Assembly (NCBI GenBank): GCA_022819905.1
Contig: JAJEGJ010000008.1
Location: forward strand, 1 to 64,000
From: Alphaproteobacteria bacterium
GTDB taxonomy: Bacteria > Pseudomonadota > Alphaproteobacteria > TMED109
Direction: 5' to 3'
DNA length: 64,000 bases
A program made the translations under genes and the position numbers. Below are positions 55,968 to 61,881 of this stretch, piece after piece. The notes beneath the pieces were generated by a model that made no database searches, was not told the origin of the DNA, and saw only the letters and a program-made list of their open reading frames with translations. The first letter of the stretch is position 1; each line of letters starts with the position of its first letter.

Positions 55968-57122
55968 TCAGGACTCGGAATCGGCCTCCGCGCCTCGGCG
56001 GGTCTCGGTCACGATGAGCTGTGCCACCGAGCGGAGCGCCTCCTCGATCCCTGCCCCGTCAAGGCGGCACAGCCGAAAGTGGTCAAGCTGGCGATCGGCG
56101 CTGCTGCCTTCGCGAACGATGTTTCGCACGTGCGCCACTTCGTTTTCACAGTCGAGCGCCGCCGCGTCTGCCGACAACATGTCCAGCAGTTCGTCGACGT
56201 AATCCATGAGGTCAACGCGGGTACCGGACTCGAAGTCGGCCAGGAACGCCACCACGCCGTATCGCTGCGCCAGCCATCGGTTCTGCTGGATGATCTCGGG
56301 CGGGGGATCGACCGGCAGCGGCCCTGTACGGACGGCATCCAGGAGGTGCCGGACCAGACAGGTGTAGAGCGCCACGATCGATATGCCATCGTCGACGTCG
56401 GGACACACGTCGGCGATTCGGAGTTCCAGCGTCGGGAACCGGACCGAAGGACGGAGGTCCCACCAGATCTCCGAACCATCCCTCACGAAATCGAGGCGAC
56501 GGTAGTTGTCGACGATCCGATCGTAGTCCGCCCAGGACGAGAGAACCGGCGGCATGCCCGACCGGGGCAGCGCTGCCATGAGATTCATGCGGGACGACTT
56601 GAATCCCGTGACATGGCCGCCGCTGAACGGAGACGATCCGGACAGCGTCAGGAAGAGCGGGAGATAGCTGCGCATCGCCGTCATCACCCGGACGCGTTCA
56701 TCCGGCGTCCCGAAACCCGCGTGCACGTGCATCCCGCTTGCCAGCAGCTGCCGGATCACCGACTGGTACATGACCGCAAACTCCCGGTAGCGGTCCCGAG
56801 GCGTGACCGCCTGCGTCTCCCAGGCGGCAAACGGGTGCGTCGAGGAGGCCATCAGGCCGATTCCGTATTGGTCCGTGAGTTCCAGTACCGACCGCCGGAT
56901 GGCCACGATGGCCTCCCGGACCTCCGAAACGGAATGGCAGACGAGCGAATTCAGCTCGATCTGGGAGCGCAGGAGTTCCGGCACCGCCCGACACATGCCA
57001 TCGAGCTCGGAGAAAGCCTTGAGCAGGCCGGGGTCCGGGTCCGCCACCAAATCGAGCGTCTCGCGGTCAACAAGAAAGAACTCCTCCTCGATACCGAGCG
57101 TGATCTCGGAGCCGGTGCTCAC
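55968..57122 (-). CDS. GCS2-family carboxylate-amine ligase (YbdK-type)
   Basis: The 384-residue protein resembles YbdK, a weak glutamate-cysteine ligase family. It starts ITLGIEEEFFLVDRETLDLV with the conserved EEE, then QIELNSLVCHSVSEVREAI, GLMASSTHPFAAWETQ, SGMHVHAGFGTPDERVRV and LRPSVRFPTLELRIADVCPDVDD. The start is GTG overlapping the mnmA stop (GTGA). The natural substrate is uncertain. Confidence 0.88.
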   Translation of the reverse strand: MSTGSEITLGIEEEFFLVDRETLDLVADPDPGLLKAFSELDGMCRAVPELLRSQIELNSLVCHSVSEVREAIVAIRRSVLELTDQYGIGLMASSTHPFAAWETQAVTPRDRYREFAVMYQSVIRQLLASGMHVHAGFGTPDERVRVMTAMRSYLPLFLTLSGSSPFSGGHVTGFKSSRMNLMAALPRSGMPPVLSSWADYDRIVDNYRRLDFVRDGSEIWWDLRPSVRFPTLELRIADVCPDVDDGISIVALYTCLVRHLLDAVRTGPLPVDPPPEIIQQNRWLAQRYGVVAFLADFESGTRVDLMDYVDELLDMLSADAAALDCENEVAHVRNIVREGSSADRQLDHFRLCRLDGAGIEEALRSVAQLIVTETRRGAEADSES

Positions 57123-58252
57123 GACGCACGGCCCTCATCCCATTCCCTCGCCCGCGGCCAGCTGGATCTCGGTTCGATCCAACCTCCCCCCAGAACCCGT
57201 GAGCCTCGGTAGAACACCGCCGCCTGACCCGGAGCGACTGCCGGTTCGGGAGACTGGAACGACACCTCCGCCCGGCCCCCGGCCAACAGCCGGACGCGAC
57301 CGCGAGTACCTCGATGGGTGGAACGCACCCGCAGCTGCACGTCGCTCAGCTCGGTTCCGGCCTCCGACGACTCGTCCGCGAGCCAGTTCACGTCGCGGAC
57401 CGAAATGACGGACACCCCGAGCGACTCCTTGGGACCCACGACCACGCGCCGTTCAGTAGCGTCGATTCGGACCACGTAGATGGGCTGACCCGCGTCGGTG
57501 ACCCCGAGACCGCGCCGCTGGCCGACCGTGAATCCAGTGATCCCGGCGTGCGTGCCCAGCACGCGGCCATCGATGTGCACGATGTCTCCCGCCGCAGCGG
57601 TATCCGGGCGCAGGCTGCGTACGATGTCGCGATAGTTGCCGTCAGGGACAAAACAGATGTCCTGGCTCTCCGGCTTCTCGGCCACGCCGACACCGGCCCG
57701 AGCCGCGGCCCGGCGCGTTTGTTCCTTGGAAAACCCCCCCAAGGGAAAGCGAAGCCGTTCGAGCTGTGTGCGGCCGGTGGCAAACAGGAAGTAGCTCTGG
57801 TCCTTTGACGCGTCGGCGGCCCGGTGGAGTTCGGGACCGCGCGCGCCCTCAACCCGCCTGACGTAGTGACCGGTCGCCATCCAGTCGGCGTCAAGCTCCA
57901 TCGCCGTATCCAGCAGGTCACGGAACTTCACCCGCTGATTGCAGAGAATGCACGGCACGGGTGTCACGCCTTCGGCGTACCGGTCAGCGAAGTCCTGCAT
58001 CACGCTGTCCTGAAACCGCTTCTCGTAGTCGAGCACGTAGTGCGGGATGCCAAGATGGTCGGCCACGCGACGCGCGTCGTACACGTCCTGGCCGGCGCAG
58101 CATGTCTTCGTACCGGCACTGCGGCTTCCCCGGCCGTACAGGTGCAGCGTAATGCCGACGACTTCGTGTCCCGCATCATGCAGCAGCGCCGCCACGACCG
58201 AGCTGTCAACGCCACCGGACATTGCGACGACGACGCGGGAGCGGCGGTTCAT
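57119..58252 (-). CDS. mnmA: tRNA-specific 2-thiouridylase MnmA
   Basis: The 377-residue enzyme makes 2-thiouridine at position 34 of tRNAs for Lys, Glu and Gln. The PP-loop SGGVDSS is at 12-18, cysteines in GTKTCCAGQ (51-52), the catalytic pair C104 (ILCNQRVKF) and C199 (SQDICFVPDGNYRDI). The ATG at 58252 overlaps the stop of the upstream dehalogenase homologue. Also notable is that C101 precedes C104 (PCILC). A longer frame to 58825 exists but upstream sequence is antisense to the dehalogenase gene. Confidence 0.93.
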   Translation of the reverse strand: MNRRSRVVVAMSGGVDSSVVAALLHDAGHEVVGITLHLYGRGSRSAGTKTCCAGQDVYDARRVADHLGIPHYVLDYEKRFQDSVMQDFADRYAEGVTPVPCILCNQRVKFRDLLDTAMELDADWMATGHYVRRVEGARGPELHRAADASKDQSYFLFATGRTQLERLRFPLGGFSKEQTRRAAARAGVGVAEKPESQDICFVPDGNYRDIVRSLRPDTAAAGDIVHIDGRVLGTHAGITGFTVGQRRGLGVTDAGQPIYVVRIDATERRVVVGPKESLGVSVISVRDVNWLADESSEAGTELSDVQLRVRSTHRGTRGRVRLLAGGRAEVSFQSPEPAVAPGQAAVFYRGSRVLGGGWIEPRSSWPRAREWDEGRAS

Positions 58253-59214
58253 GCCGCGTGTCCGCTGGTGGACTTCTCGGCCATCCGCCGGCTGTGGAGC
58301 GCCTGCACCTCTGCGATCAGGTCGGGCGTGAAATCGGCACCCCACTCCGGCACGAAATGGCCAGCGTTGCCAATGGCCACCGGCGTGCCAAGTCCACGAA
58401 TCCGCCCGGCCAACGCGCGCATGGCGTCGGCAGGAATGATCGGATCGCGCATACCGGCGAGCAGCATCGCGAAGCCATCGAAGGTCTCGCTCCACCAGGT
58501 TTCCGCTGTCTGCGCCAACTCTGCACCCGGGTCCTTCTGCGACGTCGGGAAGAGCCGCGGCAGCGCCATGAGTGCCGCCTTGTACGAGGCGTCCGGAAAG
58601 GGCGCCTGATAGGCGTTGCACTGGGCGAGCGTCAAAATCCGGTTGGTCCGGGCCATCAACGACCGCACGTTCAGATCGGGCTCCGAGCGGGCGGTGGCCA
58701 GCCAGTTGTGATATCCGCCGGGAAGCGGCCGGGCTCCCGTGGCCAGCCACGTGTTGAAGCACACCAGACCGACGAACCGCTCCGGCATCGTGTGCGGGAT
58801 CGTCAGGCCGAGCGTGCCGCCCCATTCGTGCACGACCAGGACGATTTCGCGCAGGTCGAGACGCTCGATCAGGTCGATCAGACTGGAGCGGAGCCCGTCG
58901 AACGAATAGGCCGCGGGATCCGCGGGCTTGTCGGACCGACCGAACCCCGGCAGGTCCGGAGCGACCACCCGGTGCCCCTGCCCCACGATTTCAGGAATGA
59001 TGTGTCGATAGAGATACGCCCACGTCGGATGGCCATGCAGCAGCAGGAACGTGAGCGCGTCGGAGGATCCGGCCCCTCCCTCGTCCACGTAATGCATGCG
59101 GACCGGCCCGCAGCCGTCAAAGCCCGGCACGGCCTCGAGATAGTGCGGCGAGAACGGCCAGCCAGGGAGGTCCCGAAACCGGTCGTCCGCGGTGCGGAGG
59201 ACCTCTATGGCCAT
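58249..59214 (-). CDS. Haloalkane dehalogenase (DhlA-like) homologue with altered nucleophile
   Basis: The 321-residue alpha/beta hydrolase aligns along its length with DhlA: LLLHGHPTWAYLYRHIIPEI (57-76; DhlA has HGEPTW), VVAPDLPGFGRSDKP, NAYQAPFPDASYKAALMALP, and GMRDPIIPADAM with the acid D257, GNAGHFVPEWG with H286. The nucleophile elbow reads VVHEWGG: E130 in place of the Asp that attacks the halocarbon carbon in DhlA (D124), with W131 as the halide-binding tryptophan. The codon is GAA, so this is a real change. Substrate is unknown. ATGA overlap with mnmA. Confidence 0.85.
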   Translation of the reverse strand: MAIEVLRTADDRFRDLPGWPFSPHYLEAVPGFDGCGPVRMHYVDEGGAGSSDALTFLLLHGHPTWAYLYRHIIPEIVGQGHRVVAPDLPGFGRSDKPADPAAYSFDGLRSSLIDLIERLDLREIVLVVHEWGGTLGLTIPHTMPERFVGLVCFNTWLATGARPLPGGYHNWLATARSEPDLNVRSLMARTNRILTLAQCNAYQAPFPDASYKAALMALPRLFPTSQKDPGAELAQTAETWWSETFDGFAMLLAGMRDPIIPADAMRALAGRIRGLGTPVAIGNAGHFVPEWGADFTPDLIAEVQALHSRRMAEKSTSGHAA

Positions 59215-59302: not shown

Positions 59303-60670
59303 TCAGTCGAGGAGGACGCCAGGCAACCACAGAGCGATCTCCGGGAAGCCGATGACAAACCCGAGGCCCACCAGCTGCAGCGCAACGAACGGAATGATGC
59401 CGCGGTAGACCATCTGGATCTTGACGCTCGGTGGCGCCACCCCCTTCAGATAGAAGAGCGCGAACCCGAACGGTGGCGTCAGGAACGACGTCTGCAAGTT
59501 CACGGCAATCAGCACGGCAACCCACGGGATCACCAGTCCGGCCGCAACGTGCGTCCCGAAGTCCAGCGTCTCCATGATCGGGGCGAACAGCGGCAGCACG
59601 ATCAGCGTGATCTCGACCCAGTCGAAGAAGAAGCCCAGCAGGAACACCATCCCCATCATCAGGAACAGGATGCCCCACGACCCGAGCCCCATGTGCTCGA
59701 CGAACGCGTGGATCAGGTCGTCTCCGCCCAGCGACCGGAAGACGTACGAAAACGCGGTCGCCCCGATGAAGATCCCGAAGATCATGGCGCAGGTCAGGCC
59801 GGTCCGCCCGACCACATCTTTCAGGACCGCCCTCGACAGCCGACGGTTGAACACCGCCAGGATGATGGAACCCAGCGCGCCAACCCCGGCGGCCTCCGTC
59901 GGTGTCGCGAAACCGGCAAAGATCGAGCCCAACACCAGGAAGATCAGGAAGATCGGCGGGATGAATGACCGCAGCACCATCCGCAGCAGTTCCGCCTGGC
60001 TTTCCGGACCTTCCGACGCCGGCAGCGGCGGCGCCAGCGTCGGATTGAGGCGCGTGCGGAAGAACAGATAGACGATGTACAGCGAGGCCAGGACCAGACC
60101 CGGGAAGACGGCTGCCACGAACAGCGTTCCAACCGAAATCGACAGCAGGTCCGCCATGATCACCAGCATGATCGACGGAGGAATGAGAATTCCCAGCGTC
60201 CCCGAAGCGCTGATGGTGCCCGTGGCCAGTGACGGGTGGTATTGGCGCTCGAGCATCACCGGCAGCGCGAGCAACGTCATCATCACGACCGAAGCGCCGA
60301 TAATGCCGGTGGTGGCGGCCATGATGGTGCCCATGATCGTCACGGACATCGCCAGCCCGCCGGGCACGCGGCGGAGCAGGACCTGCAGGCAGTGCAGGAG
60401 GTCGTTGGCGACCCCGGACCGCTCCAGCATCGTGCCCATGAAAATGAACATCGGCACGGCGACGAGGATCAGGTTCTCGCAGACACCGCCCCAGATTCGG
60501 GAAATGATGTTGAAGAACTCGATGAACGAAAACACGTCGGCCGCAAGGCCGAGGAAGCCGGAACCGAGGGCCACGCCGCCCAGCACGAACGCAACCGGAA
60601 ACCCGCTGAACAGGAGCGATGCCAGCGCCAGGAACATCAGGACCGGCATCAGGGTGATGAGTGTGTCCAT
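59303..60670 (-). CDS. TRAP transporter large permease (DctM-type)
   Basis: The 455-residue subunit has about 12 hydrophobic segments, MTLITLMPVLMFLALASLLFSGFP at the start, ILVAVPMFIFMGTMLERSGVAND, IMGTIMAATTGIIGASVVMMTLLALPVML, GTLGILIPPSIMLVIMADL, ATPTEAAGVGALGSI and TSFLTPPFGFALFYLKGVAPPS. ATG 60670 shares its first base with the DctQ stop (TAATG). The sequence resembles the mannitol/chloroaromatic-type branch. No binding protein gene was found nearby. Confidence 0.9.
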   Translation of the reverse strand: MDTLITLMPVLMFLALASLLFSGFPVAFVLGGVALGSGFLGLAADVFSFIEFFNIISRIWGGVCENLILVAVPMFIFMGTMLERSGVANDLLHCLQVLLRRVPGGLAMSVTIMGTIMAATTGIIGASVVMMTLLALPVMLERQYHPSLATGTISASGTLGILIPPSIMLVIMADLLSISVGTLFVAAVFPGLVLASLYIVYLFFRTRLNPTLAPPLPASEGPESQAELLRMVLRSFIPPIFLIFLVLGSIFAGFATPTEAAGVGALGSIILAVFNRRLSRAVLKDVVGRTGLTCAMIFGIFIGATAFSYVFRSLGGDDLIHAFVEHMGLGSWGILFLMMGMVFLLGFFFDWVEITLIVLPLFAPIMETLDFGTHVAAGLVIPWVAVLIAVNLQTSFLTPPFGFALFYLKGVAPPSVKIQMVYRGIIPFVALQLVGLGFVIGFPEIALWLPGVLLD

Positions 60671-61335
60671 TACTGCTCTCCCCTGATGGCCTGTGCTTCC
60701 TGGGCGGCCGCCGCACGGAGTTCCTCTTCCGGATTGCGGAGTTCGGGAAGCGACTTGGACAGTTCAAGCGCGGCCGCCGTCTGGCCGGTCTCGAGCAGCA
60801 TGAGGTATGCGAGGTTCCTGAGAAGGACTGCCACGCCCGCAGCGAGCAGCAACAGCATTCCAAATGGCACGAACGACTTGATGATCCATCGATGGGACAG
60901 ACCGGTAAGGGCAGACGACACCTCATCCATGCTGAACGACCGCTGGGCGAAGTCGAGACCGAACCAGATCACGAGCGCGGCGTATGGAATCAGGAACAGC
61001 GTGATGCCGGTGACTTCGAGCCGGGCCTTCCAGAGCTGAGAAAACCGTTCACGGACGACCTCGATCCGGACATGGGAGTTCCGCAAATAGCCGAAGCCCA
61101 GCGCCAGCAGGAACAACGCCGCATGGAGGTGCCATTCCATCTCCTGCAGTTTTGTCGAGCCGAGCACCAGGAAACGGCGTGTCACGATGTCAAAGATGAT
61201 GATGAAGATCAGGGGAATCGCCAGCCAAGACCCAACCATCCCGGCGAAGGTAAGCCCCCGGTCGAGTGCGCGGCTGAAGCGCACCAGCGGATGTCGCTCC
61301 GGCGCCTGGACGCTCCCAGAATTGTCCATGGACAT
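60670..61335 (-). CDS. TRAP transporter small permease (DctQ-type)
   Basis: The 221-residue protein is larger than usual DctQ. It has four helices: FAGMVGSWLAIPLIFIIIFDIVTRRFLVLG, LHAALFLLALGFGYLRN, VTGITLFLIPYAALVIWFGLDFAQ and FVPFGMLLLLAAGVAVLLRNLAYLML, then a C-terminal acidic tail. AAGGAGA lies about ten bases before ATG 61335. No DctP-type gene is present upstream or downstream in the window. Confidence 0.85.
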   Translation of the reverse strand: MSMDNSGSVQAPERHPLVRFSRALDRGLTFAGMVGSWLAIPLIFIIIFDIVTRRFLVLGSTKLQEMEWHLHAALFLLALGFGYLRNSHVRIEVVRERFSQLWKARLEVTGITLFLIPYAALVIWFGLDFAQRSFSMDEVSSALTGLSHRWIIKSFVPFGMLLLLAAGVAVLLRNLAYLMLLETGQTAAALELSKSLPELRNPEEELRAAAAQEAQAIRGEQ

Positions 61336-61881
61336 AGGTATCGGGTCTCCTTCTGCGTAACCGGCAGGATCAGGGGATTCCGGCGAGGCCCGTAACTTCG
61401 GAGCCGCTGGCGATGCCTTATATACCAGCTTGCCAAAGAGGAAGGGCGGTCTGCCCCCCCTTGCGTCAGTCCCCAACCGTCTCGATCGCGAGCGTCTCCA
61501 GTCCGGGAATGATACGAAGCCCTTCGGCGAATTCCGGCGAAGGACCAACCACCTCCATGCACTCGGCAGAATTACCGCGCAGCACGGAGGTCGATGATCC
61601 GACGGCTCCCTCTACCCACCTTCGGCCGGGTCCCGGTTCCGGATCGGCAGCCAGGCATTCAAGCGCCGGGGACCTAACGTACCCCAAGAAGCGTTCGGAA
61701 AAGGCGGCCTCAACGACTGCGGAACAGATCGGCTGGCATTGAGATCGTCGTGTAACGAATGCTTAACAATGGCAGACTATGGAAGAATGGGGAGCGTGTG
61801 AAGCCCGACGACGGTCTCCTTCCCGAGCCAAGATGATGACAGCCCGACAATCAGTGCCGGGAAACCCCGCACACGCGCACC
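61336..61881. other. Long intergenic region before PhoX-like gene
   Basis: About 546 bases between the divergent DctQ and PhoX-like genes. A minus-strand open frame at 61466-61750 looks partly protein-like and is listed separately. The segment 61730-61800 is AT-richer and may hold the PhoX promoter; I found no convincing Pho box. Confidence 0.35.
61466..61687 (-). CDS. Short unrecognised open frame, possible gene remnant
   Basis: A minus-strand open frame (TTG start at 61687, frame open to about 61750) encodes a sequence with protein-like character near its end (SAECMEVVGPSPEFAEGL and IPGLETLAIETVGD) but no recognisable family. It lies in the direction of the TRAP operon, 131 bases upstream of DctQ. 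It may be the decayed C-terminus of a lost upstream gene such as a binding-protein partner, but that is only speculation. Confidence 0.2.
   Translation of the reverse strand: MGYVRSPALECLAADPEPGPGRRWVEGAVGSSTSVLRGNSAECMEVVGPSPEFAEGLRIIPGLETLAIETVGD

Follow-up and report, generated by a model that had tools for sequence, protein, structure and literature searches.

What becomes of a haloalkane dehalogenase whose nucleophilic aspartate has been replaced by glutamate is the question raised by one gene in the window (the whole 64,000-nucleotide stretch of DNA that was analyzed). The gene is a single uninterrupted frame on the reverse strand, running from an ATG at 59214 to a TGA at 58251-58249, and its key residues, placed by alignment to DhlA and invariant among its closest orthologues, are as follows.

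58249 to 59214, reverse strand: Glu-variant haloalkane-dehalogenase-like gene, 321 amino acids plus stop (coding part 58252 to 59214)
58825 to 58827, reverse strand: GAA at codon 130, encoding Glu where DhlA has its nucleophile Asp124, the same residue in 19 of 19 clade members
58822 to 58824, reverse strand: W131, halide-site Trp (W125 in DhlA)
58702 to 58704, reverse strand: W171, halide-site Trp of the cap (W175 in DhlA)
58444 to 58446, reverse strand: D257, catalytic acid (D260 in DhlA)
58357 to 58359, reverse strand: H286, catalytic base (H289 in DhlA)

Judged by homology, the window protein branches within subfamily I of the haloalkane dehalogenases (DhlA, 1edb and 1b6g; DppA, 2xt0; DpaA, 7avr), with ∼40% identity to these pollutant-degrading enzymes. 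A phmmer comparison aligns residues 1 to 308 without a break to DppA (2xt0), DpaA (7avr), and DhlA (1edb), with E values of 1e-67 to 1e-73, bearing out the continuous alignment to DhlA-type dehalogenases reported in a preliminary description of this DNA. An AlphaFold2 model built on a 68-sequence alignment (pLDDT 94.8, pTM 0.94) predicts an alpha/beta-hydrolase fold with a helical cap, matching DppA (2xt0) with a Z score of 44.0 and an rmsd of 1.5 over 297 residues; the model shares its fold with DppA, DpaA, and DhlA (Z scores of 42 to 44), with subfamily II enzymes next (Z of ∼31), and the homology to subfamily I is full length. The protein also matches Pfam Abhydrolase_1, and it scores 280.8 bits against NCBIfam PRK00870 (haloalkane dehalogenase), above the cut-off of 265, with a marine orthologue (L043) falling under it at 233.7.

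The departure lies in the nucleophile elbow. Residues 126 to 136 read LVVHEWGGTLG, and E130 aligns onto D124 of DhlA, in agreement with the HEWGG for xDWGG noted earlier; it is preceded by H129, where DhlA-type proteins have Gln. The fold, the cap with its APFPD motif, the catalytic His and Asp, and both halide Trp residues are otherwise shared with subfamily I. The cap motif picked out in the preliminary description (APFPDASYKAAL) is present, and its numbering of the acid, base, and elbow tryptophan is right, with phmmer placing D257 on D260, H286 on H289, and W131 on W125. The two halide-stabilizing Trp residues (W131 following the nucleophile position and W171 in the cap) and the subfamily I base and acid (H286 and D257) are 100% invariant across all 19 members of the clade, although identity within it falls to 40%. 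The Asp nucleophile, a defining feature of haloalkane dehalogenases, is missing from all 19 members, all of which have Glu130, and the protein is therefore not filed as a haloalkane dehalogenase; the automatic PRK00870 annotation is unsafe for this order. Epoxide hydrolases of the alpha/beta-hydrolase fold have an HDWG elbow with an Asp nucleophile and an HGxP motif, and the window protein resembles them in its His before and Trp after the nucleophile position and in its HGxP motif, but its cap follows subfamily I dehalogenases and Glu130 stands throughout the clade where theirs is Asp. As to cap tyrosines near the site, comparable to the two epoxide-activating Tyr of those enzymes, only Y168 is clade specific, as read from sequence alone. 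The Asp-Arg-x-x-Arg motif of fluoroacetate dehalogenases is absent, the window protein having EWGGT at this point and the whole clade having Trp after the nucleophile position.

The substitution is fixed across the order as sampled here (28 genomes, all of one family), with the gene present in 19 genomes representing all eight genera: orthologues occur in six genomes of the window's genus and twelve from other genera of the same family. The elbow is [VLM]HEWGG in 19 of 19 orthologues over an identity range of 93% to 40%, so a sequencing error at codon 130, one of two findings that the preliminary description thought might overturn its observation, is ruled out; the other, homologues with Asp at this site, holds only for proteins beyond the clade, whose identity is ≤51%. 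A Glu codon, GAA or GAG, stands at position 130 in each of 15 orthologues checked, which come from separate assemblies, and the frame is full length in all; GC3 across the clade ranges from about 0.8 down to 0.16 to 0.23. Among the members of this lineage are the streamlined MarineAlpha9 group of AT-rich marine alphaproteobacteria (PMC8879329) and larger GC-rich genomes such as that of the window.

Outside the order, Asp occupies the nucleophile position in 69 of 71 relatives, which come from other alphaproteobacteria, betaproteobacteria, deltaproteobacteria, Acidobacteria, and Chloroflexi, and the remaining two, from marine gammaproteobacteria, have Asn; none of these ∼70 close relatives has Glu. 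No Glu variant was found elsewhere among relatives from samples, not a census, of 385 class genomes and 398 phylum genomes, nor in a scan of genome contigs, and this wider sampling added Asp cases and one Asn. The nucleophile is Asp in essentially every close relative examined, and a profile of the Glu clade separates its members (485 to 564 bits) from the next relatives (≤312 bits). The Asn-elbow DhlA-type proteins (CQNWGS) are from Marinobacter santoriniensis (L076), an Oleiphilaceae bacterium (L083), and one more phylum genome (L193). Like the Glu clade, they carry a natural substitution of the Asp nucleophile, and they are a second such replacement in DhlA-type proteins, with Asn rather than Glu and, for L076 and L083, of separate origin in the tree; Asn could revert to Asp by deamidation, as in DhlA D124N, whereas Glu cannot. 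Three Burkholderiaceae loci (L046, L049, and L055) carry a second, more distant dehalogenase-like gene ∼3 to 5 kb downstream of the Asp-type gene.

In a maximum-likelihood tree of 90 sequences, the 19 Glu proteins form one clade within the DhlA-like group with 100/100 support, and the long stem of this clade measures 0.68 substitutions per site. This single clade indicates that the change from Asp to Glu occurred once and was then retained. The best explanation is that it became fixed, along with a remodeled pocket, in the common ancestor of this alphaproteobacterial order. Within the genus, dN is 0.033 to 0.125, dS is 0.19 to 0.69, and dN/dS is 0.16 to 0.22, and the Glu gene is therefore under purifying selection. 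The GAA and GAG codons, low dN/dS, and full-length frames leave next to no probability for a sequencing error, a chance mutation, or a decaying gene, and this explanation was rejected.

The remodeling shows at sites where a single residue is common to ≥98% of 54 close Asp relatives: of 56 such sites, the Glu clade departs at 14, compared with one in each of three comparison clades of 8 to 16 sequences. Among the 14 are 130 (D to E), 168 (F to Y, three residues ahead of W171; F172 in DhlA), 218 (F to L or M; F222), 222 (V to F in most members; V226), and 259 (L262). In DhlA, F172, F222, and V226 line the cavity. Position 62 (E56 in DhlA) is Q, N, or E in Asp relatives and H, S, Y, or L in the Glu clade, with H62 in the window protein, and position 129 (Q123 in DhlA) has gone from Gln to an invariant His; E56, Q123, and L262 are among the ligand contacts in DhlA structures (PMC7034887). 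The cap contains a further segment peculiar to the clade.

58615 to 58674, reverse strand: clade-specific cap segment, residues 181 to 200 (LNVRSLMARTNRILTLAQCN), placed by alignment

Within it N182, R184, A188, R189, T190, N191, I193, L194, L196, C199, and N200 are invariant in the Glu clade, and the pattern NxRxxxARTNxILxLxxCN is almost invariant inside the clade and not found outside it. The pocket was thus rebuilt around an unchanged base, acid, and halide site. This speaks against decay and in favor of an active enzyme whose substrate or geometry is new.

As the best explanation, put tentatively, we infer that this haloalkane-dehalogenase-like alpha/beta-hydrolase is a working enzyme with Glu130 as its nucleophile. 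The Glu130 carboxylate, one methylene longer than that of Asp, would attack the carbon bearing a leaving group held by the W131 and W171 side chains, and the resulting gamma-glutamyl ester would be hydrolyzed by water activated by His286-Asp257; the changes at F172, F222, V226, and E56 (DhlA numbers) would accommodate the extended side chain as well as a different substrate. Against a nucleophilic Glu130, the oxyanion hole is made for Asp, an ester displaced outward by one bond would require a shifted geometry, and the retained His, Asp, and Trp residues could be partly structural. If Glu130 does attack, this may be a form of chemical attack so far unseen in this enzyme fold, and no precedent for a Glu nucleophile in the family or fold was found in the literature searched, which took in only a minority of subscription journals.

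A Glu side chain exceeds the length that the usual ester geometry allows, and a rebuilt pocket and cap with new invariant polar residues (N182, R184, N191, and N200, plus H129 and Y168) is what a changed reaction would lead one to expect. The enzyme might then be active with Glu130 acting as a general acid/base or substrate anchor alongside the His286-Asp257 dyad, a reading that covers hydrolysis through direct water attack or another reaction of the fold (lyase or decarboxylase); new chemistry following loss of the nucleophile does occur in this fold, as in the plant methylketone synthase ShMKS1. We consider this rather unlikely, however, as the dyad and the full halide site of two Trp residues are kept without exception and would be unneeded if there were no leaving group. 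The different reaction proposed in the preliminary description would fit the remodeled pocket, but nothing indicates the lactonase that it gave as an example.

A feature further distinguishing the Glu clade from subfamily I is linkage to mnmA. The genes flanking the Glu gene in the window are as follows.

57119 to 58252, reverse strand: mnmA, tRNA 2-thiouridine(34) synthase, 377 amino acids (PRK00143, 423.3 bits)
55968 to 57122, reverse strand: YbdK/GCS2-type carboxylate-amine ligase, following in the same run (context specific to the genus)
59303 to 60670, reverse strand: TRAP transporter large permease DctM, lying upstream (context specific to the genus)

The mnmA ATG overlaps the Glu-gene TGA (ATGA) in the window, and the Glu gene lies directly before mnmA in 18 of 18 measured loci, with stop and start overlapping in most and the Glu-gene stop 29 to 49 bases ahead of the codons for MnmA SGGVDSS in all 18. 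The AT-rich marine genera have, in this order, anmK, an alpha/beta hydrolase gene on the opposite strand, cysE, an iscS-like gene, iscS, a [2Fe-2S] ferredoxin gene, the Glu gene, and mnmA. Within the window's genus these last two genes sit between the TRAP transporter and ybdK, with iscS-fdx on another contig, and the pair has therefore survived rearrangement of the cluster together. MnmA thus gains an unexplained fixed neighbor in this order, and mnmA adjoins none of the Asp-type relatives.

This constant pairing, its position inside cysE-iscS-iscS-fdx-mnmA in marine genera, its persistence away from iscS-fdx, and its absence from Asp relatives would suit a catalytically dead alpha/beta-hydrolase retained to bind or regulate MnmA or the cysteine desulfurase/ferredoxin sulfur pathway. 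We think this rather unlikely, since H286, D257, W131, and W171 are undrifted in 19 sequences down to 40% identity. Moreover, fdx adjoins mnmA in some other alphaproteobacteria without the Glu gene, so its position may merely reflect insertion into an old operon, and the likely event is that the ancestor of the order acquired a dehalogenase-like gene within such an operon for sulfur transfer. The inactivity considered in the preliminary description is accordingly disfavored by the invariant dyad and Trp pair and by purifying selection, while keeping a modest probability. The data clearly separate a conserved and functional protein from a decayed one, but not a nucleophilic Glu130 from an acid/base residue or a noncatalytic partner.

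The gene neighborhood suggests a housekeeping or sulfur-related role rather than pollutant catabolism. That the protein is a natural alpha/beta-hydrolase with glutamate as covalent nucleophile, recruited from haloalkane dehalogenation to a sulfur-transfer and tRNA-thiolation cluster and acting on a pathway-derived substrate, is a doubtful proposition. Co-loss of the Glu gene and mnmA was dropped as evidence of linkage: the nine order genomes without the Glu gene also have no mnmA, but the genes are adjacent, eight of the nine genomes are ≤75% complete, and the neighboring iscS is also missing in eight. In one genome of the same family (G011, 97% complete), the Glu gene is absent and mnmA and the cluster iscS were not found at the thresholds used, so that either the assembly has a gap here or the entire cluster was lost.

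Directly upstream of the Glu gene, DctQ-like and DctM genes occupy 59303 to 61548 with no adjacent DctP gene seen, an arrangement conserved in the genus. The contig with the iscS and fdx genes of the window's genome (L156; G000:C77) also carries a type I polyketide-synthase-like frame, ∼7 kb apart.
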